DNA from: a virus
DNA length: 41,615 nucleotides
Reading direction: 5' to 3' (one strand)
Virus record (IMG/VR): IMGVR_UViG_3300032246_000499
Coordinates: 1 to 41,615 of that record
Part shown: in pieces, positions 2,610-23,765 of the stretch
Position numbering within the stretch: the stretch's first letter is position 1
Layout of the letters: each line of letters opens with the position of its first letter
Notes under the pieces: generated by a model
Told to the model about the DNA's origin: nothing
The model's database searches: none
The model's input: only the letters and a program-made list of their open reading frames with translations
Made by a program: the position numbers and the translations under genes

Positions 2610-5166
2610 TTAATCCTTTTTAGTCTTTGTTGAAGTAGGTTTTTGTTTCTGTAATTCAGCTTGGTGTTCACGGTTTTTGTCCGCTTCTCCAAACTGATGG
2701 GCTTGTTGTATACCTTGAACAAGTAACTGCTTATGCTGCTTCTCTTTGTCGTGGTTCTTGTCTATCTGCTGTTTCATCAGGTCGGCACCAATCCTAGCTT
2801 GCTCTCCTTCTTTCGTAGCCTGCAACTGAGCCGAGGTTTTAGCTATATCTGTCTGAGCTTGTAGCTGAATCCGTTCTCTTTCAATCTGCATCTGCTGCAT
2901 CTTGAGCTGGGCGTCCGTCTGATCTTTCTGCATCTTGCGCTGCTGTTCTGCGGCTTTAATCTGTAACTCTTGCTGCTGCATCTGAATTATCGGATCTTGA
3001 GCTTGCTGTTGAGCCTGCTGCTGCGCCGCCTGTCCTCTATTCTGCTGTAACAGTTGTTGTGCTGCTTGAGCTATCAGTGGTGCAAGCCGTGCTTCTACTT
3101 CTGGGGGCATATGTATATCTTCATCTGACGCATCCTTTTGAGGTGGTAACGTCATCCCTAGTTGCTCTTCAATCTGCACACGATATTGAAACCCTATATG
3201 CTCTGCTACGTGGGCCATTAAAGTTGCTTGAAGCATTTGTTTTAGTTGTGGCATAGATTCAACCAAAGCCATAATCTTTGGGTCTTCCGACATGGCCATG
3301 TGAGTAGCAATATGAGCTTGATGATCCTGGTATGAAAACGCTTTAACCGGCTTGCCAGCTAATAGATTCTGGTTCTCTGTAACAGGGTCTTGGGGCTTTT
3401 GATCTTCTGCCATTGGTACAAGTTTATTAGCTTCTTTAATACCAAGTACGTCTAACATCTGACGGTGTAATAGCGGAAGGTTATATAACTGTGGTGCTTG
3501 CTGGGCTAACTGAAGAACTGCCTGATACTGAACAATCTTTTGCGCCATCGTACTAGCATTTGGGTCTGAGACTGGAATGACATCAACGTCGTCATAGTCT
3601 GACTTCTTAGCGCGGGGTGAACCTTCTACAGGCTCATAGTTATACGCTTCTGGTGTGTAGTCCGCAATAATCCGCTTGAGTAACTTTAACTCCCGCTTCA
3701 TTGAATAGTGAATGCGTGCCTGAACTGCCGACATTACCTTAAGAGTGCGTTCTAAAATTGCAAGCGTTGTACCTACTGGAGCTTGACTAGACATGTCTGA
3801 TATTTGTAAGTCTGCTGTATTAGCAAACCGCCGTCCATCTTCCACAATCTGACCTAGTAATGCCATTAACACTTGACTTGGCTCCTTATACGGGAGGGTC
3901 ATAATGTTGTCTTTCATCGTACCACTAGGCACATCTACATCTCTAAATTCTCCTGGTGCTATCGGTGTATCATCGCCCTTAACACGCAATCCACGGGTCT
4001 TAAAGCCACCTGGCAAGTTTGCAAGGGAACCTGCGTCCACCAATTGCCTAATAAGCGACGTTCCAGATTTAGCGAAAGCACCAATAAGGTGAACCAAACC
4101 GAAACAATAAAAGCCAAAACCAGGGATGTACCCGTAATGGACAAAATGCTGACGCTTAGTATGTGTTTTGTCGTCTGGCTCCCAATTTCTACGGATTGCA
4201 AGAACCTTTTGACTGCCTTTTTCAATAGTAATGACGTACGGTAAACCAATTCCTGTTTGCTCACCATCTTCTTCATGTTCATATCCCGGTAGATCTAGGT
4301 TAACATTAATTTCTAGTAGCTTATATCTATTATCTGTTGTAGCTCTAAAGCCAAGCTTTTCTGCAATCTTCTTCTCTACTTCATCTAACGAATTCTCTGG
4401 TTCCCCAAGGTCTACATCTAAATAGAACCCGGCTACCTGTAATCTTCTAAGTTCGTTCTCGGTCTTACGCATGACGTGAGTTACACGCTCTGCTTGTTCT
4501 AAGCTAGCTGCTCCATAAGGTACAACTAAATCCTCAGCAGGAACATACATAGAAACTTGACGCTCTAAACTTGGGTCGTAGTAAACCTTTTTAAACGCAT
4601 TACCAGCTAAACCCAAGCCCCATAACATACGCTCATGCTCAGGTCTATACTCAGGCATTTTTTCGGTTAGTTGATAATTCATGTCGTCTTGGACACGAAC
4701 GGCGGCTTCTTTTTTCTTGGGTGTTTTCTTTACCAATGATTTGTGTTTTAACGGGTCCCGCAGCAGGGAAGGTGGACATCATCGTCTCTGATTGAAACTT
4801 AACTAAAGCTTCTGCTAACATTGGGTGATATATACCACACGCACCCGGCCACGGTTCCATACGATCTTCAATCTTAAGACCTAGCAACTCTAAGCCATCT
4901 ACATAAGTTTGGATCCAGTCTTTACGTGAAGAAATATCATCTTCAACATCACCTATTAAATCACTAGCAAGTTGGGCAAGTTCACCCTCAGATAAATACT
5001 CAGCAAGGTTTTCACTAAACTCTTCGTCTTCTTCTACAGTATCTAGAGCTTCATTTTCGTCACCAATATCAACAACAATTTCTTCTTCTACGATTGGTTC
5101 CTCAGTATCCACTAATAATGCGTCTAGACCTAAAGGGGCTTGGTTAAGTGCTTTATCTATTGCCAT
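2610..5166 (-). CDS. Portal protein, reading frame broken by a one-base frameshift near 4724-4727
   Basis: The portal is the dodecameric ring at one head vertex through which DNA is packaged and ejected. Two frames together make one protein of about 851 residues. The first runs from the ATG at 5166 (AGGA ribosome site 8 nt upstream) to about 4728: acidic start, then KDWIQTYVDGLELLG, MEPWPGACGIYHP, and AGPVKTQIIGKE. The second runs from there to 2610: DDMNYQLTEKMPEYRPEHER, VPAEDLVVPYGA, ERVTHVMRKTENELRRLQV, and a long Gln-rich C-terminal coiled coil. Deleting one A from the AAAA run (plus-strand TTTT at 4724-4727) joins them as GKETPKKKEAA, which is how related portals read. Without the correction the first frame ends at 4651 with a nonsense tail, and the second can only start at a TTG at 4736. 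Either an assembly or sequencing error, a real mutation, or a +1 frameshift. Confidence 0.85.
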
Positions 5167-8476: not shown

Positions 8477-8545
8477 TGATACCAGTTATTTTTCGTCGGG
8501 CGTGTCAGGTGCGTGCGTGGCGGCTCGGGTTAAATAGCGTTTCAC
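8477..8545 (+). repeat. Dispersed intergenic repeat, copy 1
   Basis: Starts TGATACCAGTTAT, continues through a C/G-rich stretch with GCGTGTCA, and ends TAGCGTTTCAC. A second full copy lies at 9561-9621 and a partial one at 9405-9437. Each lies in non-coding DNA upstream of plus-strand genes, so this looks like a duplicated leader or control region. Confidence 0.6.
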
Positions 8546-8558
8546 GACCTAGTGAAAC
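8539..8558 (+). promoter_or_regulatory. GTTTCAC palindrome abutting the second early promoter
   Basis: GTTTCAC (8539-8545), 6 nt, GTGAAAC (8552-8558): a perfect 7 bp inverted repeat ending directly at the TTGACA -35 box at 8559. As DNA it is well placed as an operator or activator site; since it lies upstream of the -35 it is not in the transcript from this promoter. Related elements occur at 9615, 10274, 11239, 13363 and 15702. Confidence 0.65.
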
Positions 8559-8587
8559 TTGACATATCCTATCAGCTAAGATATAGT
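8559..8587 (+). promoter_or_regulatory. Strong early sigma-70-type promoter
   Basis: TTGACA at 8559-8564, a 17 bp spacer, TATAGT at 8582-8587. It shares the 15-base string AACTTGACATATCCT with the promoter at 8052. The predicted start at about 8594 lies inside the longest possible downstream frame and therefore forces the later ATG at 8642 as the real start. Confidence 0.75.
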
Positions 8588-8641
8588 TACTACATCGGCA
8601 AACGACAATTCAGTCGCCCGATATTTTATGGAGAATTTACC

Positions 8642-9334
8642 ATGGCTAAAACCATTGTAGAAACTGAAGTAAAAGAGCCCGTTAATAACGGTTTAAATCT
8701 TGATAATTTGCAGACCGCTGTTTATCAGTTTGCTAGTTTATCGGGTAGTTCTACCAGCATCGCTAAAGAGATTTATTCTTTTGTGCCAAATTGGCTTGAC
8801 GGCGATCTCGATTCTAGCATTACTAATAGAGTTAATCGGGCTCTGTTGTTGCGCCACAAGGAAATCAGCTATTCAGAATATGGATATGCTGAAATCAATG
8901 GTTCGACTCATTTTGTTAAGGTGTATGAATTGATCGATGGCGTTGAAACTCAGATCGATCCTGAGTTGCGTAAGAAGTGCAAGAATGTAATGCGCATCGA
9001 TGCTGATCATGCACTTAGCTATACTGGTCAAGAATACGGTAAGTTAAAAACCAGTGGTGATTTAGATAAGCATAAAGCTATTGGCGAGTGGAGAACTAAA
9101 GGTAGTAAGTATATGTCCAATGTTAAGGGAGAGATCACTCGTAAGATTAAATCTCTAGTCGCACCAGAAACAAAGGGTAGAGCTGTAATCGCTGATTTTA
9201 GCGATCATGTTACAGAAGTATTCGCTGATTTAAAAAAGCGCTGTAAAACAAGTGTCGAGGCTCGTGGTGATACAACCGCAAACCCTGACAAGTTTGCCCT
9301 AGCTGTCAAGGCTTTTTGGGTAGCGTATAAGTAA
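8642..9334 (+). CDS. Early protein of unknown function (230 aa)
   Basis: The frame is open from 8552, but the promoter -10 at 8582-8587 and a GGAGAA ribosome site place the start at ATG 8642 (MAKTIVETEVKEPVNN). The protein is soluble and mixed alpha/beta, with a middle segment HKEISYSEYGYAEINGSTHF and a basic helical C-terminal half (SNVKGEITRKIKSLVAPETKG), ending AVKAFWVAYK. No known motif was found. It has its own promoter with an adjacent palindrome and a strong terminator after it, so it is a single-gene unit. Expression this early suggests host takeover or regulation; the basic C-terminal half could bind nucleic acid, which is a guess. Confidence 0.75.
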   Translation: MAKTIVETEVKEPVNNGLNLDNLQTAVYQFASLSGSSTSIAKEIYSFVPNWLDGDLDSSITNRVNRALLLRHKEISYSEYGYAEINGSTHFVKVYELIDGVETQIDPELRKKCKNVMRIDADHALSYTGQEYGKLKTSGDLDKHKAIGEWRTKGSKYMSNVKGEITRKIKSLVAPETKGRAVIADFSDHVTEVFADLKKRCKTSVEARGDTTANPDKFALAVKAFWVAYK

Positions 9335-9345
9335 GTAGTATTTTT

Positions 9346-9379
9346 AGCCACACTCTTAACGGGGTGTGGCTTTTTTTTT
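9346..9379 (+). terminator. Rho-independent terminator
   Basis: AGCCACAC (9346-9353) pairs with GTGTGGCT (9364-9371) across a 10 nt loop and is followed by a run of nine T (9371-9379). It ends the early gene at 8642-9334. Confidence 0.85.
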
Positions 9380-9404
9380 GCCCAAAATTTTTAGCCCTTG
9401 GCTT

Positions 9405-9437
9405 TGATGCCAGTTATGAGCCTGCGTGCGCGTTCAC
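9405..9437 (+). repeat. Dispersed intergenic repeat, partial copy 2
   Basis: TGATGCCAGTTAT at 9405-9417 matches the other copies at 12-13 of 13 positions, and is followed by a C/G-rich stretch ending CGTTCAC that resembles their later part. It lies just after the terminator. Confidence 0.45.
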
Positions 9438-9560
9438 AGCGTGTGCCATTACCTAAGATACTCATACACCACAGTCACTGCCCTAATACTAAGTCCCTAC
9501 CTTATTTACCTAGTTCACCTATGTATGACACATTGTTTAAGCGATGACCCCCAGTTAAAA

Positions 9561-9621
9561 TGATGCCAGTTATCTTTCGGCGTGCGTGTCAAGTTCGGGC
9601 TTCGCTAATATAGCGTTTCAC
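9561..9621 (+). repeat. Dispersed intergenic repeat, copy 3
   Basis: TGATGCCAGTTAT at 9561-9573, then a GCGTGCGTGTCA stretch, ending TATAGCGTTTCAC at 9609-9621. It parallels 8477-8545 with a deletion of about 8 bp. The right arm of its GTTTCAC palindrome is degenerate (ATGAATT at 9628-9634) and no gene starts close behind, so this copy may be decayed. Confidence 0.55.
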
Positions 9622-9720
9622 ACCTACATGAATTCTGATTCCACCCAATGATACTAAACTTAGTAACGAGAATAGTGTGTGCGTCGCTGAGACAAGCTGA
9701 ATATGATAGGATTTCGTGTT

Positions 9721-10114
9721 TGTTCCACGTTATAAGTAAAGTATGGAGATTTCTGTTCCAAAATGGAGTCGCTTGGAACAAGCGTAAGTGCTTGATTATG
9801 CTCAGTAAAACACGATCTGTTCCAATGTTCCAGCGTTTTTAGGGTATATAGGGAGTTGGGAGAAAACTAAGAGCAAGCCTTGCTTTCCTAAAGTGCAAAA
9901 CTATAACTACGAAAAATTAATGCAGAAGCCATACATACTCTCAAATCGCTGGAACAATGGAACAAACCACTATACTATACATATATTATAATATTATATA
10001 ATTATTATTATTAATAAAAACAAGGACTTACAGATTTCAAAAACTCGAAACTTGACTTGTTCCAAAATCTTTTAGTAAAGTTAATAAAACGGTTTTTGTT
10101 GGAACATTGGAACA
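9721..10114. other. Candidate replication origin: ten TGTTCCA/TGGAACA heptamers around an AT-rich core
   Basis: TGTTCCA or its complement TGGAACA begins at 9721, 9754, 9774, 9818, 9826, 9950, 9958, 10058, 10100 and 10108. Six of these form three pairs with an 8 bp period: 9818-9832, 9950-9964 and 10100-10114. Ten copies in 394 bp is far above chance (about 0.05 expected for a random sequence). Between the second pair and the single copy at 10058 lies a very AT-rich stretch (about 9967-10020, mainly TATA and ATTATT runs) that could unwind. No gene is supported here. Iterons plus an AT-rich core is the classic plan of a replication origin; an operator array for a regulator is the alternative. 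Confidence 0.6.
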
Positions 10115-10185
10115 GACCTCATAAGCATCATCTCTTTACATATAAGCCTTACACACACCTAAAAAAGTTACCCTAACGACCCATT

Positions 10186-10208
10186 TATATGTCAAGTTGT
10201 TGTATAAT
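10186..10208 (+). promoter_or_regulatory. Promoter with TATATGT upstream box and TATAAT
   Basis: TATAAT at 10203-10208, with TATATGTCAAGTT at 10186-10198 upstream and CGACCC before it. The block matches 20 of 23 positions with 11087-11109, in front of another early gene. There is no good -35 at 17 bp. ATATGTCAAGTT is the exact reverse complement of AACTTGACATAT, which overlaps the -35 boxes at 8052 and 8559, so a shared regulator may bind it. Confidence 0.6.
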
Positions 10209-10273
10209 AGAAGTGTTGAGGAACGAATTGTTTGTCAACCTAGTGAAGTGCCATGTGTGTTGCGTAATATAGC

Positions 10274-10293
10274 GTTTCACACCCCTGTGAAGT
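10274..10293 (+). promoter_or_regulatory. GTTTCAC leader hairpin or operator
   Basis: GTTTCAC (10274-10280), 6 nt, GTGAAGT (10287-10293), preceded by ATATAGC. The last two positions break perfect DNA symmetry but still pair as G-U in RNA. It lies downstream of the promoter at 10186-10208, hence in the leader, and 26 nt before the ATG at 10320. Confidence 0.6.
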
Positions 10294-10319
10294 TAGTTCA
10301 GTTAATTAAGGAGAATATT

Positions 10320-10505
10320 ATGGGCAGAGTTAAACAGTTAGCAATGAGTGAGTATGAAAAATATTTAGCCACAAGGGAAAAGCAAATGAAGTTAGAGTTT
10401 GCTGAGAACGATCAGGACATAGCCCAATACCATGCGGAATTCAATGCGTGGCTAGATGCTTACGAGAGGTCATTCGGTAGTGCGGGTAAAGAGGGGGAGT
10501 TATGA
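10320..10505 (+). CDS. Small helical early protein (61 aa)
   Basis: The start is ATG 10320 with an AAGGAG ribosome site at about 10308-10313; the open frame reaches further upstream but crosses the promoter. The protein MGRVKQLAMSEYEKYLATRE is charged and helical to its end, with no motif. It is the first of four overlapping small genes: its TGA overlaps the next ATG as ATGA. Confidence 0.65.
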   Translation: MGRVKQLAMSEYEKYLATREKQMKLEFAENDQDIAQYHAEFNAWLDAYERSFGSAGKEGEL

Positions 10506-10726
10506 TTGACGAAACTTTTACCCCACAGTGCAAGCTATGTGGTGATGTGTTCGGTGAAGCTAGGTTTAAGATCGGCTACGCAGTTTGCCTTTCATGTGGT
10601 GATGAAATTGCAGAATTAAAAACCAAGCAGTATACGGTTGCACCTATGCACAAGTCTAATTATGTCCTGATTACTAACAGGGAAGATTTAAAAGGTCTTA
10701 ACAATAAAGGGGGGTTAGTAAAATGA
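10502..10726 (+). CDS. Small zinc-ribbon-like protein (74 aa)
   Basis: Two Cys pairs, CKLCG and CLSCG, about 20 residues apart, form a zinc-knuckle/ribbon pattern (N-terminus MIDETFTPQCKLCG). The rest is short and polar. Such small zinc proteins often bind nucleic acid or host polymerase subunits, but no partner is evident. It overlaps both neighbours by 4 bp (ATGA) and is thus translationally coupled. Confidence 0.65.
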   Translation: MIDETFTPQCKLCGDVFGEARFKIGYAVCLSCGDEIAELKTKQYTVAPMHKSNYVLITNREDLKGLNNKGGLVK

Positions 10727-10905
10727 AAAGCGTAAAGCAAAGGCTAAAACAAGTAATAGCAAGACTAAAAAAAGCGCAGAAAAATGGTGGCTTACTTGAA
10801 ACCGAAAAGATGGAGATAGAAGTAGAGTTGTTATCCATAGCAGAACAAAGGCTTGAGGATTTAAAACAGGAAAGGAGTAGTGATGAAAATTGTAAAGTTG
10901 TATAG
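10723..10905 (+). CDS. Small basic coiled-coil protein (60 aa)
   Basis: MKSVKQRLKQVIARLKKAQK at the N-terminus is a strongly basic amphipathic helix followed by an acidic helix (EKMEIEVELLSIAEQRLED); together they look like a helical hairpin. ATGA overlap with the upstream gene and a 23 bp overlap with the next. Function unknown. Confidence 0.6.
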   Translation: MKSVKQRLKQVIARLKKAQKNGGLLETEKMEIEVELLSIAEQRLEDLKQERSSDENCKVV

Positions 10906-11059
10906 AAAACCTAATACGCCTGAGTTCTACAAGATGGTGCGGTGTGATGCCCATGCGTTTTTAGTTAATTACCCCATAGACAAGCCTGATAGTAAGCGTG
11001 AAGCTCGTTGGTTTTACTTTGATGAGGTCTATATCGACTGGATAAGGGAGTTTGCGTAA
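10883..11059 (+). CDS. Small early protein, unknown (58 aa)
   Basis: ATG 10883, TAA 11057-11059, with AGGAG 7-8 nt before the start, inside the end of the previous gene. The product begins MKIVKLYRKPNTPEFYKMV and ends WFYFDEVYIDWIREFA, a compact mixed sequence rich in aromatic residues. No family recognised; ribosome site and position at the end of the overlapping chain support it. Confidence 0.55.
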   Translation: MKIVKLYRKPNTPEFYKMVRCDAHAFLVNYPIDKPDSKREARWFYFDEVYIDWIREFA

Positions 11060-11086
11060 GTAAAAAAGATAGGGTTAGCGACCCTC

Positions 11087-11109
11087 TATATGTAAAGTTA
11101 TGGTATAAT
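11087..11109 (+). promoter_or_regulatory. Second promoter of the TATATGT/TATAAT class
   Basis: TATATGTAAAGTT at 11087-11099 and TATAAT at 11104-11109, preceded by GGGTTAGCGACCC, itself a short inverted repeat (GGGT...ACCC). It matches the promoter at 10186-10208 in sequence and spacing and lies 19 bp before the next ATG. Confidence 0.6.
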
Positions 11110-11128
11110 TGTTTTTTAGGAGAACGAT

Positions 11129-11233
11129 ATGTTAAAGAGTGTGTTTAGTGATTTCGGTGTCAAGGTGTTGTTAGTATTGTTGTGGACAGTAGTCATAGCC
11201 CACTTTATGAAGTTGCATGGGGTGTGGTTTTAA
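11129..11233 (+). CDS. Single-span small membrane protein (34 aa)
   Basis: ATG 11129 with an AGGAG ribosome site (about 11118-11122), TAA 11231-11233. The product MLKSVFSDFGVKVLLVLLWT continues VVIAHFMKLHGVWF: a short polar N-terminus, one membrane helix (VKVLLVLLWTVVIAHF) and a short tail. It sits right behind its own promoter. Single-span proteins of this size in phages include holin-like and membrane-perturbing early proteins; nothing decides between them. Confidence 0.5.
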   Translation: MLKSVFSDFGVKVLLVLLWTVVIAHFMKLHGVWF

Positions 11234-11238
11234 GTTAG

Positions 11239-11258
11239 GTTTCACCAATTAGTGAAGT
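11239..11258 (+). promoter_or_regulatory. GTTTCAC leader hairpin or operator
   Basis: GTTTCAC (11239-11245), CAATTA, GTGAAGT (11252-11258), with two G-U-compatible positions at the stem base. It lies between the 34-residue gene and the ATPase module, 34 nt before the ATG at 11293, followed by the same type of leader (AGTTCAATTAAGTTC, then AAAGGAG). Confidence 0.6.
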
Positions 11259-11292
11259 TCAATTAAGTTCAATCTAGTTAAAGGAGTTTTAT

Positions 11293-12210
11293 ATGGAAAC
11301 GAATCAAGTTGTTTTAAATCAACCCAAGCATATCATTAGCTTGGCAACATCATCTGTAATAGTATCTGCTGATGTGAGTGTCTGGTCTGCTACCAAGCAA
11401 GATCGAGAGATTTCTAATGAGGTAACTACCGCTAAAAAGGCAGACCAAAATGCTGGTCGGTTTGTCAAGTCCTTACTAGCTGGTGATGTGTCGCATAAGA
11501 ATCTGCTCAACTATCGGCAGACGGTATATAACTGGTTTCGCAGGGCTACCTATGATTGGAATGGGTCAAGTCGGCTGTTGCCTGTTGTTGATTTACCGAA
11601 GTTTAAAACAGAGTTTCACGAACATGAGAAATGCTTTTTTGCGATACGAGATATATTCTTAGCTAAGTATCCAAGCATTGTCAGTAACATGGCATTTGCA
11701 CAGGGTCAAATGTTTACGAGAGAAGAATATCCTACCGTAGACCAAATCCGCAATAAGTTCTCAATCAATCTGTTTGTATCGGAAGTTCCGACTAATGACT
11801 ATCGGTGCAACATAGCCCAAGATTTAGCAGAGGACTTAAAAGCGCATTACGAGGGACAGGCTGGCATTATAGTTAAGAGTGTGGCTGATGAGTCTCTTAG
11901 GCGTTTGGCTGAAGTAATGGAAAGTATCTCGCATTGTTGTGGCGTGGATATTAGCGAGTCACCTGATGGTGAAGAGAAAACTAAGAAGCGTAAGATATAT
12001 GAGTCAACGATTGAAAAGGCGAGAAGTTATTGCAACACCTTTAAGTCGTTCAACTTAGACGGTTCGACGCTGTTAGAAGAAGCTTCAGTATCGCTGGAGA
12101 AAGCATTAAATGGTATTAGCGCAGAGGACATTCGGGATAGTGATGCCGTAAGAACCCATGTCAAAGACGAAGTAGATAGTATCCTTAGTAAGTTCGGTAG
12201 TTTAGTGTAG
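11293..12210 (+). CDS. DUF3150-like partner of the MoxR/VWA module
   Basis: A 305-residue soluble protein with an AAAGGAG ribosome site before ATG 11293. The N-terminal part has a core typical of phage proteins found beside MoxR-type ATPases: SADVSVWSATKQDREIS, then AGRFVKSLLAG, then RLLPVVDLPKF. This W-SxxK-D / N-or-FVKxLL / LP pattern resembles the DUF3150 group, from memory and unverified. The C-terminal half is helical, with a Cys pair (SHCCGVD) and a charged linker (SPDGEEKTKKRK). It is followed by the ATPase and VWA genes in one direction with short gaps, so it is probably an adaptor or substrate of that pair. Function is otherwise unknown. Confidence 0.65.
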   Translation: METNQVVLNQPKHIISLATSSVIVSADVSVWSATKQDREISNEVTTAKKADQNAGRFVKSLLAGDVSHKNLLNYRQTVYNWFRRATYDWNGSSRLLPVVDLPKFKTEFHEHEKCFFAIRDIFLAKYPSIVSNMAFAQGQMFTREEYPTVDQIRNKFSINLFVSEVPTNDYRCNIAQDLAEDLKAHYEGQAGIIVKSVADESLRRLAEVMESISHCCGVDISESPDGEEKTKKRKIYESTIEKARSYCNTFKSFNLDGSTLLEEASVSLEKALNGISAEDIRDSDAVRTHVKDEVDSILSKFGSLV

Positions 12211-12262
12211 TTCAATTTAGTTAATCAATCAGTGTTTGATCATAAGAAAGGTAGTGAATAGC

Positions 12263-13339
12263 ATGAGTAAAGTAAATTTTAGTGCAAAGGTTTCGATCGA
12301 CGAAACTAAGAACATCATCAAGAAAATTGGTGAGCATTTGACACCTGTCGTAGTAAGTGAACCTGGAGTTGGCAAGAGCACGCTTCTTAAGATGTTACAA
12401 GAGGACATGGGCGATTCTTACGACTACATCTATGTGGACTGTCCTGTAAAAGATATGTCAGACATAGCCATGACTATCCCCAATCACGAAACGAAATCCC
12501 TTGAATACTATGTGTCAACGCTATTCAAACTAGATAGTCCTAAGCCAAAGGTCATCATGCTAGACGAGATGATGAAAGCCCCCAAGCTATTGCAGATTAT
12601 CTTTACCAGACTAACGCTAGAGAGAATGGTAGGTGATGTGTCGTTGCCCAAGGGTAGCATAGTGTTTGCGACAAGTAACAATTCATCAGATGGTGTAGGC
12701 GATAGTATGCTGGCACACGCTGGCAATCGGGTATGTAAGGTAGACATGGCAAAGCCTGAAGCTAAGTCGTGGCTGATATGGGCTGATAAGAATGATGTAT
12801 CTAAGGTCATCATGGCATGGGTCGCTATGTATCCCCGTTGTTTGCATAGCTATCTAGATGGTGGTGCGGAAGATAATCCATACATATTCAACCCTAAGAA
12901 AGCGGGACAGTTGTCGTTCGTATCCCCTCGTTCGTTGGCAAAGGCATCTCATATTGTTGATGTTCGTGATGAGTTAGGTGAGAACGCTACTATGTGTGCG
13001 TTGGCTGGCACGTTAGGCGAATCTGCGGCGAGAGATATGTCGGCTTTCCTTGCCATAGAAAAACAACTACCGAGCATGGAAGATGTGTTGAAGAACCCTA
13101 AGACGGTGAAAGTTCCTGACGAGGTATCGGCTACGCTTATGCTGATGTTTCAGGCATTAGATTATCTAAAGACACAAGACGATATGAGTAAGTTCATGGA
13201 GTTCGTCAATCGGGTAGCTAGTTCAGAGATTCAGGCTATCTTCTTTAGTTTGATATTAAGTAGTAGTAAGACTGTTCGTATTGCTCGCAACAACAATGAA
13301 GTTAAGGATTGGGCAAAGGACAATCATCAGTTGATGTAA
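12263..13339 (+). CDS. MoxR/CobS-type AAA+ ATPase
   Basis: The start is taken as ATG 12263 (MSKVNFSAKVSIDE); an upstream in-frame TTG at 12236 has no better ribosome site. The 358-residue protein has Walker A EPGVGKST at 33-40, Walker B VIMLDE at about 97-102 followed by MMKAPK (compare 'DEINRAP' in MoxR), a sensor-1 FATSNN and a sensor-2-like SPR (SFVSPRSLAKA). MoxR ATPases work with VWA-domain proteins as chaperone or metal-insertion machines; CobS/CobT in cobaltochelatase is the best known pair. The VWA protein is encoded next, so a two-part machine is likely. The target in the infected cell is unknown. Confidence 0.85.
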   Translation: MSKVNFSAKVSIDETKNIIKKIGEHLTPVVVSEPGVGKSTLLKMLQEDMGDSYDYIYVDCPVKDMSDIAMTIPNHETKSLEYYVSTLFKLDSPKPKVIMLDEMMKAPKLLQIIFTRLTLERMVGDVSLPKGSIVFATSNNSSDGVGDSMLAHAGNRVCKVDMAKPEAKSWLIWADKNDVSKVIMAWVAMYPRCLHSYLDGGAEDNPYIFNPKKAGQLSFVSPRSLAKASHIVDVRDELGENATMCALAGTLGESAARDMSAFLAIEKQLPSMEDVLKNPKTVKVPDEVSATLMLMFQALDYLKTQDDMSKFMEFVNRVASSEIQAIFFSLILSSSKTVRIARNNNEVKDWAKDNHQLM

Positions 13340-13362
13340 GTAGGTGTGCTGGCTAAAAACTG

Positions 13363-13382
13363 GCATCACCTTATAGTGAAAC
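13363..13382 (+). promoter_or_regulatory. GTTTCAC-family element before the VWA gene
   Basis: GCATCAC (13363-13369), CTTATA, GTGAAAC (13376-13382), followed by GC as in the complement of GCGTTTCAC. The left arm matches the consensus at 5 of 7 positions, so stem pairing is weaker than in other copies. It lies 23 nt before ATG 13406. Confidence 0.5.
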
Positions 13383-13405
13383 GCAATTTAACAAAGGAGT
13401 TAAAA

Positions 13406-14674
13406 ATGGATCAGGAAACAAGACTCAAGCGTAGTCATATTATGCTTATGAAGAATGTTGAAACAACATGGTATTCGGGTATCTTAATGATGGGCGTATC
13501 TGAAGTATCGGATAATAAATTCACTGCTTATACAGATGGTGTAAACAAGCGGTATTCTCGCCCATTCATGTCTGATATAAAAGATGATGCGAAGTTGCGT
13601 GGTCTTATCATGCACGAAAATCTTCATGTGGCACTAAAGCATATCCCAAGATGTAAGGACTTATTCAAGGAAAACCCCAAACTAGCTAATGTGTCAGCAG
13701 ATTTTGTTGTAAATGACATCATTGAAAACTTTAAGGACAAGGCTAATTGTGTATTACCTGACGGTGCGCTTTATCACCCCATGTTTCGTAATTGGTCGGT
13801 GCGTGAAGTCTACGCATACTTAAAGAAAGAGCAGGAAAAGCAAAAGCAAAAACCCGAAGATGGTGGGGGTAGTGGTGGCAAGGGTGATAAGGGTGATGAT
13901 GAAAATAACGATTCACCTAATGATGAAAAGGTAACTGACTTGGAGAAGTTATTGAAGAACCTTGATAACGCCAAGACTTTAGATGAACATGATTGGGAGT
14001 CGGGTAAGGAACTTACACCTGAAGAAGTTAAAGCGGTGGAAGAGGGGATTGATAAAGCACTACGCCAAGGCGGTATTCTAGCTGGTCGCATGGGTGCGAA
14101 GATTCCTCGTTCTATCTCAGACTTGTTAGAACCCAAGGTTGATTGGCGTGAAGTGTTGCGTGAGTTTGTTACGTCGGCTACTAAGGGCAAAGATGAGTTT
14201 ACATGGCGTAAGTTTAATAAGCGTATGTTAGCCAATGATTACTACTTACCGTCGTTAGAGAATGAATCTATTGGTGAGGTGGTGGTAGCTATTGATACAT
14301 CAGGGTCTATATCAAATGAACAGATAGCGGAATTTGCATCAGAGTTAGCTTCCATCTGTGATACTTGTGACCCCGATAAGGTGCGTGTTTTATGGTGGGA
14401 TACTGCGGTGCATGGTGAGCAATTATTCTCAGGGAACTATACAGAGATTGCTAAGATGCTAAAGCCTATGGGTGGTGGCGGAACTATGGTTTCATGTGTC
14501 AGTGAATACATAAATAAAGAATCAATAAAGGCTGAATGTGTGCTGGTCTTTACCGACGGATATTTAGAGCCTGACATCAAGTGGGACATTGTTACACCAA
14601 GCCTGTGGTTAGTAACGCAGAACAAGGCATTTGAACCCCCAAGCGGTAAGAAAATATTACTTAATAAGGAGTAG
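13406..14674 (+). CDS. VWA-like protein with N-terminal putative metallopeptidase domain (DUF2201 type)
   Basis: The start is ATG 13406 with AAAGGAG upstream (the frame is open from 13346). 422 residues. The N-terminal domain has HENLHVALKH at 70-79, an HExxH zinc motif with a further His, as in the DUF2201 N-terminal putative metallopeptidase domain. A Pro/Glu/Lys/Gly/Asp-rich linker follows (about 140-185). The C-terminal VWA-like domain has the MIDAS signature DTSGSIS at about 297, the second-site Thr in GGGGTMV and the Asp in FTDGYLEPD. VWA domains bind a divalent ion and partner proteins; with the upstream MoxR ATPase this forms a CobS/CobT-like or RavA/ViaA-like pair. A zincin plus MIDAS suggests proteolysis or remodelling of a host target. 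Confidence 0.85.
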   Translation: MDQETRLKRSHIMLMKNVETTWYSGILMMGVSEVSDNKFTAYTDGVNKRYSRPFMSDIKDDAKLRGLIMHENLHVALKHIPRCKDLFKENPKLANVSADFVVNDIIENFKDKANCVLPDGALYHPMFRNWSVREVYAYLKKEQEKQKQKPEDGGGSGGKGDKGDDENNDSPNDEKVTDLEKLLKNLDNAKTLDEHDWESGKELTPEEVKAVEEGIDKALRQGGILAGRMGAKIPRSISDLLEPKVDWREVLREFVTSATKGKDEFTWRKFNKRMLANDYYLPSLENESIGEVVVAIDTSGSISNEQIAEFASELASICDTCDPDKVRVLWWDTAVHGEQLFSGNYTEIAKMLKPMGGGGTMVSCVSEYINKESIKAECVLVFTDGYLEPDIKWDIVTPSLWLVTQNKAFEPPSGKKILLNKE

Positions 14675-14678
14675 GAAA

Positions 14679-15743
14679 ATGAACATAAGATACAGTAATC
14701 TAGAACAAATAGTTAAGACAGTTAAGCCCTATCGTGGAACACAACAATATCCTACGCATGGTAATTATTATAGGAACGGTTCGCATAGGGGCAAGATGTT
14801 TACCGTTGATGAAATTGATGGAGAAAAAGTCTTTCGCATTAACTATGGTAATAGCTGGAATAAAGTTGTGGTGCTTGAGAGTATGATCGAAGAACTTAAA
14901 AAAACTGGCATCAAAGATATTCAGAGTCAGGAAAAACATGAATGGGTTAATGGTGGGTATAAAGAAACGGGTGAGTGGGAACATTATTACTACAATGTTG
15001 TGCCATGTGAGATTGGTATAGTCCGACCTGATGATACTTTAGAGATTACTGCTGAAGAAAATCTAGGACAAGGCGGTAGGTATTACTTGGAACATTATGT
15101 AATAGGCTATGGGCGTGTGTATACCGATTGTCGGCGTGGTGGTGTATTGTTATCTACATACAAAGGATCACGATATGACTTTCCGTTGTTTAAAGGTATG
15201 CGTATCAATTTAGAAACTGCTATGCCATGCAACAATGGCGTATTAAAAGTATTTAAGAATAGTATTGATAGGAAGAAAGCTAAAGAGTTGATGGCTGACT
15301 ACAAAGATATGTTTGATGTGTCCAAAGTTATGCTTTCACAGATGAGTGAAACGGTATTTACTGCAACAGTTGTGGATATATTTACAGAGTGTGGGGTATG
15401 TGTAGAGGGACAAACAGATAGTAATAGGTTGGAACATAAAGATGCAATAGCATTAGCTGATAAGTTGCGGATTGAGGGTAATTACTTTGATAGTGCAATT
15501 ATGTATGCTTATGCTTATGATGTTGCTCATATGTCGTGGCGCATGAGATATTACTCAAGTGGTAGTTATGTTTTTAATCCTAAACACTTTATGAATATTG
15601 ATCGTGTGATAAGTAAGAAAATCTATCTAGATAAAAAGCCATTCAAGGTTAAAGAACTTGTATACGGAGAACCTATGCCTAGTAGTGAATGGGGATATAG
15701 CGTTTCACTCAATGGTGAAGAAGTAAAGCGGTATAGTTGTTAG
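14679..15743 (+). CDS. Unknown protein downstream of the VWA gene (354 aa)
   Basis: ATG 14679 with AAGGAG about 8 nt upstream, 4 bp after the VWA stop; the longer frame starting at 14631 would overlap the VWA gene without a ribosome site. The protein is rich in Tyr and Gly, soluble, with segments KMFTVDEIDGEKVFRINYGN, YYLEHYVIGYGRVYTD and a C-terminal MRYYSSGSYVFNPKHF. No catalytic motif was recognised. Close coupling to the VWA gene suggests a role in the same process. A GTTTCAC element lies within its last codons (15702-15721). Confidence 0.7.
   Translation: MNIRYSNLEQIVKTVKPYRGTQQYPTHGNYYRNGSHRGKMFTVDEIDGEKVFRINYGNSWNKVVVLESMIEELKKTGIKDIQSQEKHEWVNGGYKETGEWEHYYYNVVPCEIGIVRPDDTLEITAEENLGQGGRYYLEHYVIGYGRVYTDCRRGGVLLSTYKGSRYDFPLFKGMRINLETAMPCNNGVLKVFKNSIDRKKAKELMADYKDMFDVSKVMLSQMSETVFTATVVDIFTECGVCVEGQTDSNRLEHKDAIALADKLRIEGNYFDSAIMYAYAYDVAHMSWRMRYYSSGSYVFNPKHFMNIDRVISKKIYLDKKPFKVKELVYGEPMPSSEWGYSVSLNGEEVKRYSC
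15702..15721 (+). promoter_or_regulatory. GTTTCAC element inside the end of the 354-residue gene
   Basis: GTTTCAC (15702-15708), TCAATG, GTGAAGA (15715-15721), preceded by GATATAGC, the same left flank (ATAGC) as the other copies although it encodes protein here (YSVSLNGEE). It lies 93 nt before ATG 15815, so it probably belongs to the next gene's control region. Confidence 0.5.
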
Positions 15744-15814
15744 TTGTTGGCAGCAGCGTAGCTAGTGTGTAGCATCAGTTAATTAACTTTTAATTTAAAT
15801 GTGAAGGAATCAAA

Positions 15815-16780
15815 ATGAATTATATATACGAGGGCTTAGACCCGACAGGCGAGATAGAAGCTAAGTTGTTAGCGGACAGAGTATTTCCACTTGTGCGTGA
15901 GTTAAGATTTAAATATAACTTGCAAGCGGTAGCGGAAAGTAAATCACAACAGAGGCAACAAGCGTTCACTCTATGTAATCAATCGGGTATTAATGTTGCA
16001 AGGGTTTATTACGATCAAGATGAGGAACAGTTTTGTTACTACTCTATCTTTTACCAAAAGGACAGAGGTTCTGATAGCGCGGATCGTAGAACATTGCGTA
16101 GTAAAAAATTATCTTTGTTGATGGCTAACATTAAAAAGAATGAGGTTATACCTACTGATGAATTTATTTTACTACACCATAATCTTGTAGTTGGGCATTA
16201 CCGATATGCAGTTGAATCTGTTATAGAGGGTGTTGGTTCTTCATCAAAAAGTTCAGTCTTATCAGCAGTAGAAACACAGAAATTGTTAGAGATTGTTTTA
16301 GATGGTAAAGATAGCGATTCACTTGCTCGTGACATGAAAAATAAATTTAAACAAATACTTGACAATTACCATGAAAAGGATAATATTAAGGTAAAGCAAG
16401 ACGAAGCGGTTGATAAGTTTTTTAAACCTTGCTATATGGTGTCAGTTGATAAACGAGGACAGTTTGTAGTTGGTGTAGTTACAAATGAAGAAAGTAATGG
16501 AGATGGTAATAAACGCAAGCATTATAGTATTGTTAAACCGTTTAAGCGTGTTGCTAATCTTGAAGACTATCCCGAGTTGTTATCTTGTATGCCTATGCTT
16601 AAAGTTTATTCAGAGGAGAAGTATAAGAATGAAGAAGTTGAATATTGGGGTGAATTTATACCAAAATTTAGTGGTAAGTATATTCCTGATTTAGATATGA
16701 TAATTTCTAGCGACTATGTAGATGGTTCGGTTGACTTCACACCTGTTTGGGTATTAACACCATGCTTGTCCCAGTATTAG
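15815..16780 (+). CDS. Unknown protein (321 aa)
   Basis: ATG 15815 with a GAAGGAA ribosome site. The protein starts MNYIYEGLDPTGEIEAKLLA and is soluble and mixed alpha/beta. Its middle (LLEIVLDGKDSDSLARDMKN to VKQDEAVDKFF) is helical and the C-terminal third has alternating strands (VSVDKRGQFVVGVVTNEES). No motif or family was recognised. It overlaps the next start by 19 bp. Gene order suggests an accessory of the upstream MoxR/VWA module or a separate early function; the sequence does not decide. Confidence 0.65.
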   Translation: MNYIYEGLDPTGEIEAKLLADRVFPLVRELRFKYNLQAVAESKSQQRQQAFTLCNQSGINVARVYYDQDEEQFCYYSIFYQKDRGSDSADRRTLRSKKLSLLMANIKKNEVIPTDEFILLHHNLVVGHYRYAVESVIEGVGSSSKSSVLSAVETQKLLEIVLDGKDSDSLARDMKNKFKQILDNYHEKDNIKVKQDEAVDKFFKPCYMVSVDKRGQFVVGVVTNEESNGDGNKRKHYSIVKPFKRVANLEDYPELLSCMPMLKVYSEEKYKNEEVEYWGEFIPKFSGKYIPDLDMIISSDYVDGSVDFTPVWVLTPCLSQY

Positions 16781-17142
16781 GGTTGTCACCGATAGTAGCG
16801 CAACACTCAGGCGAGTATTATCGTGTGCCTATGTGGAAAAATGATGGTAAGTATTTTGTTTATGTAGCAGAGAACAAGGTAAGAATATTTGATGACAACA
16901 GTCTACCCGATTGTATTAAGACTAGGCTATCTATGATTCTTGCATTGGATAAGAAGTTTCCATATAAACAAAGGGCTACATCATTAGATTTATTTATTAA
17001 CCATGTCGGTGAGGAGTATAACGAAATAGGTTGGCAGTTAGATGACGAGTATTTTTTGTTGGTGTTAAAAGTATCGGAACTGGCATCTCTTATAGGTGAA
17101 CAGTTAAATAGTGATTCACTCAATGATGAAGTTTTAAATTAA
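16762..17142 (+). CDS. Unknown protein (126 aa)
   Basis: ATG 16762 (MLVPVLGLSPIVAQHSGEYY) inside the end of the previous gene; an in-frame TTG at 16747 is less likely. No clear ribosome site, so translation may be coupled to the upstream gene. The sequence has a compact beta-rich start (YYRVPMWKNDGKYFVYVAEN) and helical rest. It could be a separate small protein or the detached C-terminal part of the 321-residue protein after a frameshift; its own plausible N-terminus favours a separate gene. Confidence 0.6.
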   Translation: MLVPVLGLSPIVAQHSGEYYRVPMWKNDGKYFVYVAENKVRIFDDNSLPDCIKTRLSMILALDKKFPYKQRATSLDLFINHVGEEYNEIGWQLDDEYFLLVLKVSELASLIGEQLNSDSLNDEVLN

Positions 17143-17155
17143 ATAAGGAAATAAA

Positions 17156-17419
17156 ATGTTAGATGAAAAGTATAAACAAATTTTAAAAGATGCGGCAAGA
17201 TCGCCTAGATTACCATCAGGCGAAGACAATCCTGAGTTTGGTAAATACAATGAGGAACTAGAGATAGCTACTGAAATAGTTATGATTGAAAGTCCTTATG
17301 ATTTTTTAACTAAGTGGGATTTGGCTAGTCGGGTTTTTTATAACGAGCCAATGAGTAACATACCTTACGCTAGTTTTGTAAGACCATATACGAGGCTTGC
17401 AAAAAATGTTAAAGTTTAA
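17156..17419 (+). CDS. Small protein, unknown (87 aa)
   Basis: ATG 17156 with AAGGAAA upstream, 13 bp after the previous stop. Mostly helical: MLDEKYKQILKDAARSPRLP at the start and EELEIATEIVMIESPYDFL in the middle. No domain recognised. It overlaps the next gene by 14 bp. Confidence 0.6.
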   Translation: MLDEKYKQILKDAARSPRLPSGEDNPEFGKYNEELEIATEIVMIESPYDFLTKWDLASRVFYNEPMSNIPYASFVRPYTRLAKNVKV

Positions 17420-17606
17420 AGAGAAAGCTAAGTTAGTATTAAGTGAAATGAGTAAAGCATATCGTAATGATATGGAGTATGGTTTGTTTCAGTTAAACGA
17501 AAAGGCTAAAGAAGATTTTGCAAAAATGTATCCTGAAATATCGAGGGCATGGTTTTTTGCTATGGATTTTTTAGACGAAGTGGATAACGACAAATATGAC
17601 TCCTGA
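17406..17606 (+). CDS. Small helical protein, unknown (66 aa)
   Basis: The ATG at 17406 (MLKFKEKAKLVLSEM) is preferred over an in-frame TTG at 17397. Predicted all-helical and amphipathic, with an aromatic patch (EISRAWFFAMDFLDEV). It overlaps both neighbours (14 and 11 bp), typical of the dense early block. Function unknown. Confidence 0.6.
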   Translation: MLKFKEKAKLVLSEMSKAYRNDMEYGLFQLNEKAKEDFAKMYPEISRAWFFAMDFLDEVDNDKYDS

Positions 17607-17904
17607 AGCAAAAGTTAAAGCTAAAGTTAAAATAGTTTTAAAAAATATTAGGGCATACGCTTTTTCCCCAGTAACAGGGGGGTATGGTAGTTCAGGTGTC
17701 CCTGATATTGTTGCGTGTGTAGATGGTTGTTTTATTGGTATCGAGTGTAAAGCTGGTAAGGGAAAGCCTACTCTTCTTCAATTAGATAATCTAAAGAGGA
17801 TAGAAGCATCAGGTGGGCTTAGTGTTGTAATTAATGAAAGTAATATTAATCAGTTAGAGGAGTTAATTAAATCATGGGTAAATACAGTAAAGACAAAAAC
17901 ATAG
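17596..17904 (+). CDS. VRR-NUC domain nuclease
   Basis: A 102-residue single-domain protein of the VRR-NUC branch of the PD-(D/E)xK nucleases. The core is visible: GGYGSSGVPDIVACVDGCF, then GIECKAGKGKPTLLQLDNL, giving the catalytic Asp of 'PD', Glu and Lys of 'ExK', and the following Gln. These stand-alone phage nucleases are thought to act on branched or structured DNA during replication or recombination. The gene overlaps the previous one by 11 bp and the next by 31 bp. Confidence 0.85.
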   Translation: MTPEAKVKAKVKIVLKNIRAYAFSPVTGGYGSSGVPDIVACVDGCFIGIECKAGKGKPTLLQLDNLKRIEASGGLSVVINESNINQLEELIKSWVNTVKTKT

Positions 17905-18080
17905 ATTCACTTGTGCGTGAATTGATAAGTGAAGGGTGGAGTTCTACTAGGAAAAAAGGTCATTGGCAAATAAAACCGCCAACAGGTAATAAGATTCAAA
18001 CAATCCCAGTAACACCTAGTGATGGCAGAGCCTTTTTAAATTTTCGTGGTGATATCAGGAGAATTAAGAATGAGATCTAA
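17874..18080 (+). CDS. HicA-like small protein (dsRBD-fold toxin family)
   Basis: A 68-residue protein beginning MGKYSKDKNIDSLVRELISE. It shows the HicA plan: helix, then GWSSTRKKGHWQIKPPTG with the family's 'KG-H' turn and its His, then a basic strand and a C-terminal helix (FRGDIRRIKN). HicA proteins are RNA-cleaving toxins normally paired with a HicB antitoxin; no HicB gene is adjacent. In phages such solitary copies may act on host mRNA or serve as RNA-binding proteins. It overlaps both the nuclease gene and the next gene. Confidence 0.65.
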   Translation: MGKYSKDKNIDSLVRELISEGWSSTRKKGHWQIKPPTGNKIQTIPVTPSDGRAFLNFRGDIRRIKNEI

Positions 18081-20795: not shown

Positions 20796-20945
20796 ATGGA
20801 AAAGAAGTTTTGCCAATCGTGCCAAATGATGAAGCCGATAGAAGAAGTAAAGTTAGTTAAAACGGTGCATAATAAACGGCGATGGAAATGTTTAAGTTGT
20901 ATTGGTAAAACCTCTACAAAAGTATATTCTAGTGAGAAAAAATGA
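20796..20945 (+). CDS. Small zinc-ribbon protein (49 aa)
   Basis: ATG 20796 directly after the polymerase stop, TGA 20943-20945 overlapping the next ATG as ATGA. MEKKFCQSCQMMKPIEE carries one CxxC and KCLSCIGK the second, spaced 22 residues apart, with a basic stretch (HNKRRWK) between: a minimal zinc ribbon likely to bind nucleic acid. Possibly a polymerase-associated or regulatory factor; function unproven. Confidence 0.65.
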   Translation: MEKKFCQSCQMMKPIEEVKLVKTVHNKRRWKCLSCIGKTSTKVYSSEKK

Positions 20946-21796
20946 AAAAGATATGCGTAGTTAATTTCTGGGATGGGGCGTTTGATGGGGACTTTTTTGA
21001 GTTCTTTTTTTGTACCGCTTTTGATGGCATAGAATATGTGCTTAGTCCCCACGAAGCTGACATAGTTATTAGTTCAGTCTTTGGGCACACACAAACAGAT
21101 CCTAAGAAAACAATTATGTATATTGGTGAAAATATACGCCCTAACTATTTAGGATATAACCACTCCCTTTCATTTGACTATGACAACTATGATGGTCGCA
21201 ATTTTCGTTTGCCTTTATGGTGGAGTCGCCTTGCATGGGATGGGTTTATTCAAAAGCCAAGAAAACATAACGCACAAAATCATGGGTACGAGCAATTAAT
21301 AGACATTAAAAGTTTAATGCAACCACGCAAACTAGATATGAGTATTAAAGATAAGTTTTGCGCCATGATTGCTGGCAATCCCGAAGGACTGAGGGTTAAT
21401 TTGTTTAATTCTATATCGCAGTATAAGCAAATAGATGGGTATGGATTAATGTTTGGTAACTCATTACGAAAATCTAAGTTTACCGTACTCCCTGAGTATA
21501 AGTTTTGCCTATGCCCTGAGAATTCTGTATATGACGGTTATGTAACGGAAAAGTTAATTGATGCCTATGCTGGTCTGACTGTGCCTTTATATAGTGGCGA
21601 TGTATCAGTAAATGAAGACTTCAACAGCAAAGCGTTTATTAATTATCAAGATTTTAAAAGAACAGAAATATTTGTACACGATATAACTTGGTTTGATAGA
21701 GAGCTTGGTTTGTATAAAGATATGTATGAGCAACCATTATTACTTAAAAAGCCAAGCCTTGATGATGCGATTCAATTTGTAAGGAGCATTACATGA
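20942..21796 (+). CDS. Glycosyltransferase family 10 (alpha-1,3-fucosyltransferase-like)
   Basis: A 284-residue protein with the GT10 C-terminal donor-binding motif at about 190-220: FCLCPENSVYDGYVTEKLID, followed by LTVPLYSG. In GT10 enzymes this Glu-Asn-Ser ... Tyr-Val-Thr-Glu-Lys motif binds GDP-fucose. The N-terminal part (KKICVVNFWDGAF, ADIVISSVFGH) is the acceptor-side Rossmann half. No membrane helix, so it is cytosolic. It starts the sugar/modification cassette and overlaps both neighbours by 4 bp. Likely target: host surface glycan or a virion protein; the sugar is inferred from the family only. Confidence 0.85.
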   Translation: MKKICVVNFWDGAFDGDFFEFFFCTAFDGIEYVLSPHEADIVISSVFGHTQTDPKKTIMYIGENIRPNYLGYNHSLSFDYDNYDGRNFRLPLWWSRLAWDGFIQKPRKHNAQNHGYEQLIDIKSLMQPRKLDMSIKDKFCAMIAGNPEGLRVNLFNSISQYKQIDGYGLMFGNSLRKSKFTVLPEYKFCLCPENSVYDGYVTEKLIDAYAGLTVPLYSGDVSVNEDFNSKAFINYQDFKRTEIFVHDITWFDRELGLYKDMYEQPLLLKKPSLDDAIQFVRSIT

Positions 21797-22005
21797 AAAT
21801 AAAAACAAAATTACTCAAAGAAAAAAAAGATGGTTCAGCTATTTGCCAACTTGATTTGGATAGGGAAGCTAAGGATTGGCTAATAGGCGAGGGGTTTGTA
21901 TCCGTCTTAAGTAAAGCATTAGATATGTCAGAGTCGTTTACAAAGAAGCAACCTAAACGAATAAGAGAGTTAGTAAAAGATTTAGATATAGACGGGCGTT
22001 GCTAA
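21793..22005 (+). CDS. Small protein, unknown (70 aa)
   Basis: MKIKTKLLKEKKDGSAICQL begins two strands, followed by a helical part (DREAKDWLIGEGFVSVLSKA) and a basic C-terminus. ATGA overlap with the GT10 gene and a one-base TAATG overlap with the radical SAM gene, so it is translated within the cassette. The compact alpha/beta pattern resembles small phage proteins of unknown function. Confidence 0.65.
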   Translation: MKIKTKLLKEKKDGSAICQLDLDREAKDWLIGEGFVSVLSKALDMSESFTKKQPKRIRELVKDLDIDGRC

Positions 22006-22874
22006 TGAAATCTAAGTACGGCATACAGCACCCACACTCGCCAGTAATGGAGCTAACCACTATGGTTGGTTGCCCGCTTATGTGTAGCTTTTGCCCACAG
22101 GAGAACTTACGGGATAACTATGGCGATAAGACCAAGTACCTAACACCAGTTGATTTAACCCATGTTCTAACAAAGTTACCCCGCAACACCCGCATAGATT
22201 TTTCAGGTATGTCCGAACCTTGGGCTAACCCAGATTGCACTCAAATGCTGGAAGAAGTCCTATACATGGGTTTTAACATAGCGATCTATACGACCCTGTA
22301 TGGCATGACAAACGAAGATGCGCATAGGGTTAAAAAAGTATTAGAAGATCACCCTAAACAGGTAGAAGTAATTATGTTTCACTTGCCCGACTCCAATGGC
22401 AACATGAAGGGCTGGAAGTATTCAGAAGAATGGGTAGAGTCACTAAAGATAATGACTCAGCTTGATCTACCCTGCGGTTTTGGTGCTATGACTATGGATG
22501 GTTCAGGTAAGGTTCATGCTGATCTACAAGATATGATTGGTGACTTAGCTGGCTGGAAAGGACATACTAGGGCAGACAGTTTGAATGTAGAGCAAGTAGG
22601 TGACCAAGCATTAAGCATCACTCCACGTCATCAGTTTGCTTTAACTTGTGCCTCTACACCATTCTATGACCGCAATGTATTACTACCCAATGGGGATGTA
22701 GTTCTTTGTTGTATGGACTACAACCTGAAACACGTTATAGGGAACTTACTAAAGCAAACCTACGATGAAATATTTCAAAGCAAGCCCTTACTCGATTTGA
22801 TTGCTATGAACGAGAAGCCTGAGTTTAACAAGTGCAGTATATGTAAGTCGTGCGATAACGTTAGGAAGATATGA
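22005..22874 (+). CDS. Radical SAM enzyme with SPASM-like C-terminus
   Basis: ATG 22005 (in a TAATG overlap) is preferred over the TTG at 21999; 289 residues. The CxxxCxxC motif that binds the SAM-cleaving 4Fe-4S cluster is C23-C27-C30 (VGCPLMCSFCPQ). SAM-binding strands follow (RIDFSGMSEPWANPD). The C-terminus has a Cys-rich SPASM-like region: FALTCASTPFYDRN, VVLCCMDYNLKHVIGN and CSICKSCDN, for auxiliary clusters. SPASM enzymes modify peptides, sugars or cofactors. Its neighbours suggest a sugar or glycan substrate, but none can be named. Confidence 0.85.
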   Translation: MKSKYGIQHPHSPVMELTTMVGCPLMCSFCPQENLRDNYGDKTKYLTPVDLTHVLTKLPRNTRIDFSGMSEPWANPDCTQMLEEVLYMGFNIAIYTTLYGMTNEDAHRVKKVLEDHPKQVEVIMFHLPDSNGNMKGWKYSEEWVESLKIMTQLDLPCGFGAMTMDGSGKVHADLQDMIGDLAGWKGHTRADSLNVEQVGDQALSITPRHQFALTCASTPFYDRNVLLPNGDVVLCCMDYNLKHVIGNLLKQTYDEIFQSKPLLDLIAMNEKPEFNKCSICKSCDNVRKI

Positions 22875-23614: not shown

Positions 23615-23765
23615 GGATGAATTTGCTAAATCAATTATGGCTGGCATTATTGCGGCTGACTGGAAATTTGACTTAACTAATAAAACATGGGACGAGATTG
23701 CGGTTCGTCGTGCCTATGAGATAGCAGATGCCATGATTAAAGAACGGGAGATTAATAATGTATAA
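23604..23765 (+). CDS. Small phage protein of the 'AY-IADAM' type (53 aa)
   Basis: ATG 23604 with AAGGAG about 7 nt upstream, TAA 23763-23765. MELRDEFAKSIMAGIIAADW and the C-terminal AVRRAYEIADAMIKERE resemble a common small phage/prophage family with an N-terminal 'R-FA---M-G' helix and a C-terminal 'AY-iADAMl--R' helix, function unknown. It overlaps the methyltransferase by 11 bp and the next gene by 8 bp. Confidence 0.65.
   Translation: MELRDEFAKSIMAGIIAADWKFDLTNKTWDEIAVRRAYEIADAMIKEREINNV

Follow-up and report, generated by a model that had tools for sequence, protein, structure and literature searches.

Among the closest described systems to the locus reported here are CobS/CobT, NorQ/NorD and RavA/ViaA, in which a MoxR-type AAA+ ATPase is paired with a VWA partner bearing a metal-ion-dependent adhesion site (MIDAS). 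We know of no DUF3150 subunit accompanying these pairs outside the trio of IncC-type plasmids. In NorQD, a finger of the VWA partner is engaged by the AAA+ ring, which also pulls on the linker of that partner (PMC13036017). Among phages, gp24 and gp25 of N4 (Schitoviridae; phrog_1297 and phrog_1314) are core genes of the N4-like phages with middle expression (PMC4193335), and for group 2.2 jumbo phages a MoxR/VWA-metallopeptidase pair has been described and proposed to act in virion assembly (PMC7824862). Here we describe three consecutive plus-strand open reading frames (ORFs) at 11293-14674 of the 41,615-base virus record IMGVR_UViG_3300032246_000499 (the window), from a freshwater virus of bacteria. 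They encode a DUF3150-like protein (gene 1), an AAA+ ATPase (gene 2) and a protein with an HExxH motif and a VWA domain (gene 3), and on balance we consider it probable that the three form a single MoxR/VWA-type machine that remodels proteins at the expense of ATP, acting in the cytosol on a target outside the virion. New here are the putative DUF3150 third subunit, a conserved promoter-like site ahead of gene 1 and the occurrence of the trio on plasmids.

The window proteins share only about 23-25% identity with N4 gp24/gp25 and sit in a different phage backbone, but the likeness extends to adjacent, homologous AAA+ and VWA/DUF2201 genes with HExxH and MIDAS conserved. No DUF3150 gene was found beside N4 gp24/gp25, and a search by name in the CRISPRi-ART phage paper found none of the proteins considered here. 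The jumbo-phage pair has a domain make-up identical to that of genes 2 and 3, and the accessible text makes no mention of a DUF3150 third subunit, an operon promoter or plasmid copies. An earlier note on this DNA had called the job of the phage pair unknown, which holds only in part given the N4 core genes and the virion-assembly proposal. CobS/CobT, NorQ/NorD and RavA/ViaA are not known to have the DUF2201_N metallopeptidase-like domain.

Gene 2 matches the ATPase family phrog_1297 over nearly its full length (4.9e-53) and is homologous to N4 gp24. Its motifs are complete, comprising Walker A, Walker B, the sensor 1 asparagine and the putative arginine finger and sensor 2 arginine, and its closest solved relative is Midasin (E 1e-4). 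The window protein lies below the Pfam cut-offs for AAA_5 and AAA_3, whereas the homolog from cyanophage MinM2 is just above that for AAA_5 (23.6 versus 22 bits). We place gene 2 in the MoxR/CobS clade because of its motifs, the adjacent VWA partner, the Midasin match and the AAA_5 match of the homolog.

Gene 3 matches the Pfam domains DUF2201_N (1e-25) and VWA-like DUF2201 (1e-17), both above the gathering cut-offs (PF13203, 91.3 versus 23.2 bits; PF09967, 64.9 versus 26.4 bits), as well as phrog_1314 over nearly its full length (8.6e-86), and is homologous to N4 gp25. A set of 69 sequences was compared, among them N4 gp25 and members from a rV5-like phage and three jumbo phages. Each HExxH position and each of the five MIDAS positions (D297, S299, S301, T360 and D384) is conserved in 67-69 of these, and N95 and D99, downstream of HExxH, are likewise invariant or almost so. 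Structure predictions were made on single chains; the AlphaFold2 model of gene 3 (pLDDT confidence 83) contains a clear VWA fold, with Z scores of 12-13 to known VWA domains, and a disordered linker at residues ~150-176 between its two halves. The earlier note's description of genes 2 and 3, as a MoxR-type ATPase and a VWA protein with a peptidase-like domain and MIDAS, thus agrees with what we found, with the zinc site and peptidase function of gene 3 being putative assignments from the motif. N4 gp25 (L004:4384-5526) and phrog_1314 are labelled "HNH endonuclease" in many phage records, probably a wrong name that has been propagated; we rejected it, as the window protein is a DUF2201 protein with HExxH and matched no HNH family.

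Searched alone, gene 1 gave no significant match in Pfam, PHROGs, NCBIfam or PADLOC, nor by tblastn in phages. Its DUF3150 identity emerged because all 57 homologs were scanned and consensus searches were made: 25 of the 57 match PF11348 (DUF3150; best 1.1e-4), while the window protein itself has no PF11348 match and so falls short of the gathering cut-off. By profile comparison, gene 1 is a distant DUF3150 relative below the Pfam cut-off and not a formal Pfam member. Alignment of the gene 1 family with an IncC plasmid's canonical DUF3150 gave 86% in hhalign, rising to 93.6% after plasmid sequences were added, and gene 1 homologs share with canonical DUF3150 a neighbourhood containing AAA_5 and VWA genes (IncC plasmid, MinM2). 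The best viral match of the gene 1 model in Foldseek is a phage "DUF3150 domain-containing protein" (A0A6J7WV52, E 4e-17, 296 columns), at a template-modelling (TM) score of 0.46-0.48 and a predicted TM score of 0.55 for the model, so domain placement is uncertain. The DUF3150-like call of the earlier note is right at the level of profile and probably also of fold. A fold search of the PDB returned generic helical bundles alone, in the C-terminal half (Z 8.3 or less). PF11348 had no match in reference phage records; it had none in 296 genomes of one bacterial phylum either, but there the controls were also silent and the search is uninformative.

The three genes are strictly linked among viral relatives. 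Wherever the contig flank suffices they co-occur in the same order and on the same strand, in 35/35 cases with gene 3 as anchor and 63/63 with gene 1; anchoring on gene 2 gave 68/68 upstream and 77/77 downstream. This is far beyond chance, and the neighbourhood comparison across phages that the earlier note had suggested found no exception. The module had been listed there with the ATPase first; the genes are indeed consecutive, but their actual order is DUF3150-like, AAA+, VWA. Across 61-69 relatives the catalytic residues hardly vary, median ratios of nonsynonymous to synonymous substitution (dN/dS) of 0.10-0.12 indicate purifying selection on all three genes, and their pairwise distances correlate (r 0.74-0.85). 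Genes 4 and 5 follow the trio in many relatives and their distances correlate with each other at r 0.93; we rejected them as core subunits, since neither has a match beside plasmid trios or in MinM2.

Beyond these relatives, a gene 1 consensus search found homologs in the cyanophages MinM2, Pag-Yong1 and Pra-JY27; 44 plasmids also gave matches. In all 39 plasmids with a DUF3150 match at E<1e-5, a gene 3 homolog lies on the same strand less than 5 kb away, and a gene 2 homolog was also detected in 30 of them. Profiles of genes 2 and 3 built from the phage clade only, used together with the gene 1 profile, recovered the trio in 6/6 inspected neighbourhoods (five plasmids and MinM2). In the DUF2201-type plasmid trios (Burkholderiales, Rhodovastum) all three genes are homologous and neighbouring, in the order AAA-DUF3150-VWA as opposed to DUF3150-AAA-VWA in the phages. 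On an IncC plasmid, genes for AAA_5, canonical DUF3150 and VWA proteins follow one another, but the VWA protein there is CobT-like and has no DUF2201 match. Two "plasmid" records look like phage genomes: NZ_CP110465.1 (L316; 75 kb, Acinetobacter) encodes a DNA-directed RNA polymerase and a gene 2/3 pair, and CP057073.1 (138 kb, E. coli) is rV5-like in size and gene arrangement.

In the window the trio lies on the strand of the DNA polymerase, exonuclease, helicase and primase, opposite to the strand that mostly carries the terminase, portal and very large late proteins. An extended -10 promoter-like element precedes gene 1 in 62/107 relatives, a fraction that is approximate as the contigs compared are partly redundant. 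It is found before genes 2-5 in 0/118, 2/117, 0/81 and 0/85 stretches respectively, against a background of 0.042 per stretch; the window has a second copy at 10186-10208. AAGGAG-type ribosome-binding sites can be read before the starts of genes 1 and 3. The earlier note had placed control elements before the first and third genes, by which the hairpins listed in Table 1 were likely meant: that before gene 1 is upheld through the conserved promoter-like site, while that before gene 3 finds weak support in a short hairpin. Neither hairpin is conserved in relatives, and we rejected them as conserved regulators of the trio. The TTCAC-N6-GTGAA palindrome occurs six times in the window versus 0.16 expected, always towards the left of the early-side region (8541-17921), and may be an operator or a hairpin promoter.

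We propose that gene 2 would form the AAA+ ring and supply the force, and that gene 3 would serve as adaptor, its MIDAS-bearing VWA domain docking on the ring, the target or both. The N-terminal zincin-like domain, held on the flexible linker, could cut or clip the engaged protein, and gene 1 is probably an obligate third subunit in this lineage, acting as a helical scaffold or a target-recruiting factor. By analogy with NorQD, engagement of the VWA domain by the ring may strain the linker and so gate the zincin domain, or present it to a target that DUF3150 helps to hold. Expression of the operon would start at the conserved promoter-like site, on the early or replication side, and the machine would act in the cytosol on a non-virion target. 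We infer complex formation, proteolysis, cytosolic timing and the target. Motifs, folds and co-occurrence give good support to remodelling of the MoxR/VWA type that involves a peptidase-like domain. The leading candidate for the target would be a host complex that phages and plasmids alike must deal with, a suggestion we make tentatively and at less than even confidence; the earlier note's idea of an attack on a host complex is likewise conjectural. A sharper version, in which a mobile-element-specific MoxR/DUF3150/VWA-metallopeptidase machine, soon after entry, takes apart or cuts a common complex of the host (one of defence or of the nucleoid, for instance), is somewhat less likely still.

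The only published proposal that we found for such a pair draws on the analogy of the Acidianus two-tailed virus (PMC7824862) and would make the trio a virion-assembly chaperone with proteolytic processing of structural proteins. The pair is core in Schitoviridae (PMC4193335), and the terminase-positive contigs with the module all belong to one terminase family (77-85% identity). However, four complete sister phages (DSL-LC04, HTVC027P, HTVC023P and 023Pt_psg01) have homologous terminases (49-53% identical) and portals (40-43%) and lack all three genes, the trio occurs on plasmids, some of them conjugative, and the gene 2/3 pair occurs in phages of different virion types. Because of the sister phages, the plasmid copies and the early-side placement with its promoter, a virion-specific job is unlikely here, although it is possible in other lineages; for the assembly chaperone itself we see little probability. 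The same three observations speak for a cytosolic role outside the virion; a host target would fit this, and so, no less, would a protein of the element itself. The main alternative to a host target is that the machine acts on replication, partition or transfer proteins of the element, for instance by disassembling initiation or relaxation complexes. Replication is common to phages and plasmids, the trio lies in the replication-side cluster, and in plasmids it adjoins VirB/type IV secretion system (conjugation) genes in two cases and lies near a PRTRC cassette in some. Yet the sister phages have a similar replication gene set and lack the trio, and plasmids predicted to be non-mobilizable carry it too, leaving this alternative unlikely, if less so than virion assembly.

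A chaperone of the CobST/NorQD kind, maturing a metalloenzyme by metal or cofactor insertion with the HExxH domain binding metal for delivery, would resemble the best-known MoxR/VWA pairs (PMC13036017), and both the CobT-like VWA of the IncC version and a low-rank match of the gene 3 model to NorD (9qhe_G, E 0.013) point that way. In the phages and plasmids inspected, however, the trio has no conserved metalloenzyme or cofactor gene as its neighbour, and genes 4 and 5 find no match next to the plasmid trios, which makes such a role quite improbable. That these are ordinary housekeeping or defence-type MoxR/VWA genes with no mobile-element-specific role is hardly credible: such pairs are widespread, conflict systems included (PMC7159879), but the trio is strictly conserved throughout a phage group and has no convincing PADLOC match (best 0.0024, to a generic ATPase region).

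Several observations weigh against the remodelling machine as we propose it. The plasmid counts include near-duplicates, mostly related Burkholderiales replicons, and are not independent events. One plasmid homolog of gene 3 (Variovorax) has no HExxH, which suggests that the machine may not depend on cleavage. In N4, jumbo and other phages inspected, the gene 2/3 pair has no gene 1 nearby, and the third subunit is hence not universal. Alignments to E. coli RavA and ViaA fall short of full-length homology (hhalign probability 17% and 51%, ~90 columns each), the profile match of gene 2 to RavA being weak.

Table 1. Positions in the window of the trio, its flanking genes, motifs and putative control elements
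Feature	Position	Strand	Remarks
Promoter-like element, extended -10, TATATGTAAAGTTATGGTATAAT	11087..11109	+	Conserved; ~180 bases before gene 1
Hairpin/palindrome TTCAC-N6-GTGAA	11241..11256	+	Leader of gene 1
Gene 1, DUF3150-like protein	11293..12210	+	305 aa
Gene 2, CobS/MoxR-kind AAA+ ATPase	12263..13339	+	358 aa; ATG at 12263; N4 gp24 homolog
Walker A EPGVGKS, residues 33-39	12359..12379	+	
Walker B D101-E102	12563..12568	+	66/66 sequences
R156, putative arginine finger (HAGNR)	12728..12730	+	66/66; role assigned by position
R223, putative sensor 2 (SPRS)	12929..12931	+	66/66; role assigned by position
Shorter hairpin TCAC-CTTATA-GTGA	13366..13379	+	Before gene 3
Gene 3, DUF2201_N metallopeptidase-like + VWA domains	13406..14674	+	422 aa; ATG at 13406; N4 gp25 homolog
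HENLH putative zinc-site motif, residues 70-74	13613..13627	+	H 68/69, E 69/69, H 69/69
MIDAS DTSGS, residues 297-301	14294..14308	+	69/69
MIDAS T360	14483..14485	+	69/69
MIDAS D384	14555..14557	+	69/69
Gene 4, conserved downstream protein	14679..15743	+	354 aa; outside core trio; often downstream in relatives
Gene 5, conserved downstream protein	15815..16780	+	321 aa; outside core trio; often downstream in relatives

Other features of the window were also recorded. Inside the replication region, a glycan-type cluster at 20942-25862 (+) encodes a fucosyltransferase-like GT10, a radical SAM/SPASM protein, an FkbM methyltransferase and a GT2 glycosyltransferase. A stretch at 9816-10116 that holds no ORF of at least 80 aa contains inverted repeats with 36-nt arms (9818-9853/9929-9964) and perfect 17-nt arms (9816-9832/10100-10116). 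On the minus strand, the portal frame (2610-4736) is 722 aa versus ~840 aa in most relatives, and may have lost or changed its C-terminal part; near it in the late region lies a GroES-like co-chaperonin (2009-2425), which the sister phages also have. The 2028-aa protein at 33532-39618 (-), with the large polyvalent protein domain LPD38, is probably an ejected or internal virion protein.

N4 gp24 and gp25 have been core genes for years with no assigned function, and virion assembly is the only published idea that we found for such a pair. The fixed third subunit, the plasmid copies and the absence from sister phages redirect the question to a cytosolic target. The trio also gives DUF3150, on which a search of open papers found none, its first functional context. 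The function can be addressed at once in N4 and E. coli K-12 and with the plasmid trios. If a common host complex were indeed the target, the trio would constitute a counter-host protease system powered by ATP, whose make-up as a unit of three subunits has so far gone unrecognised.

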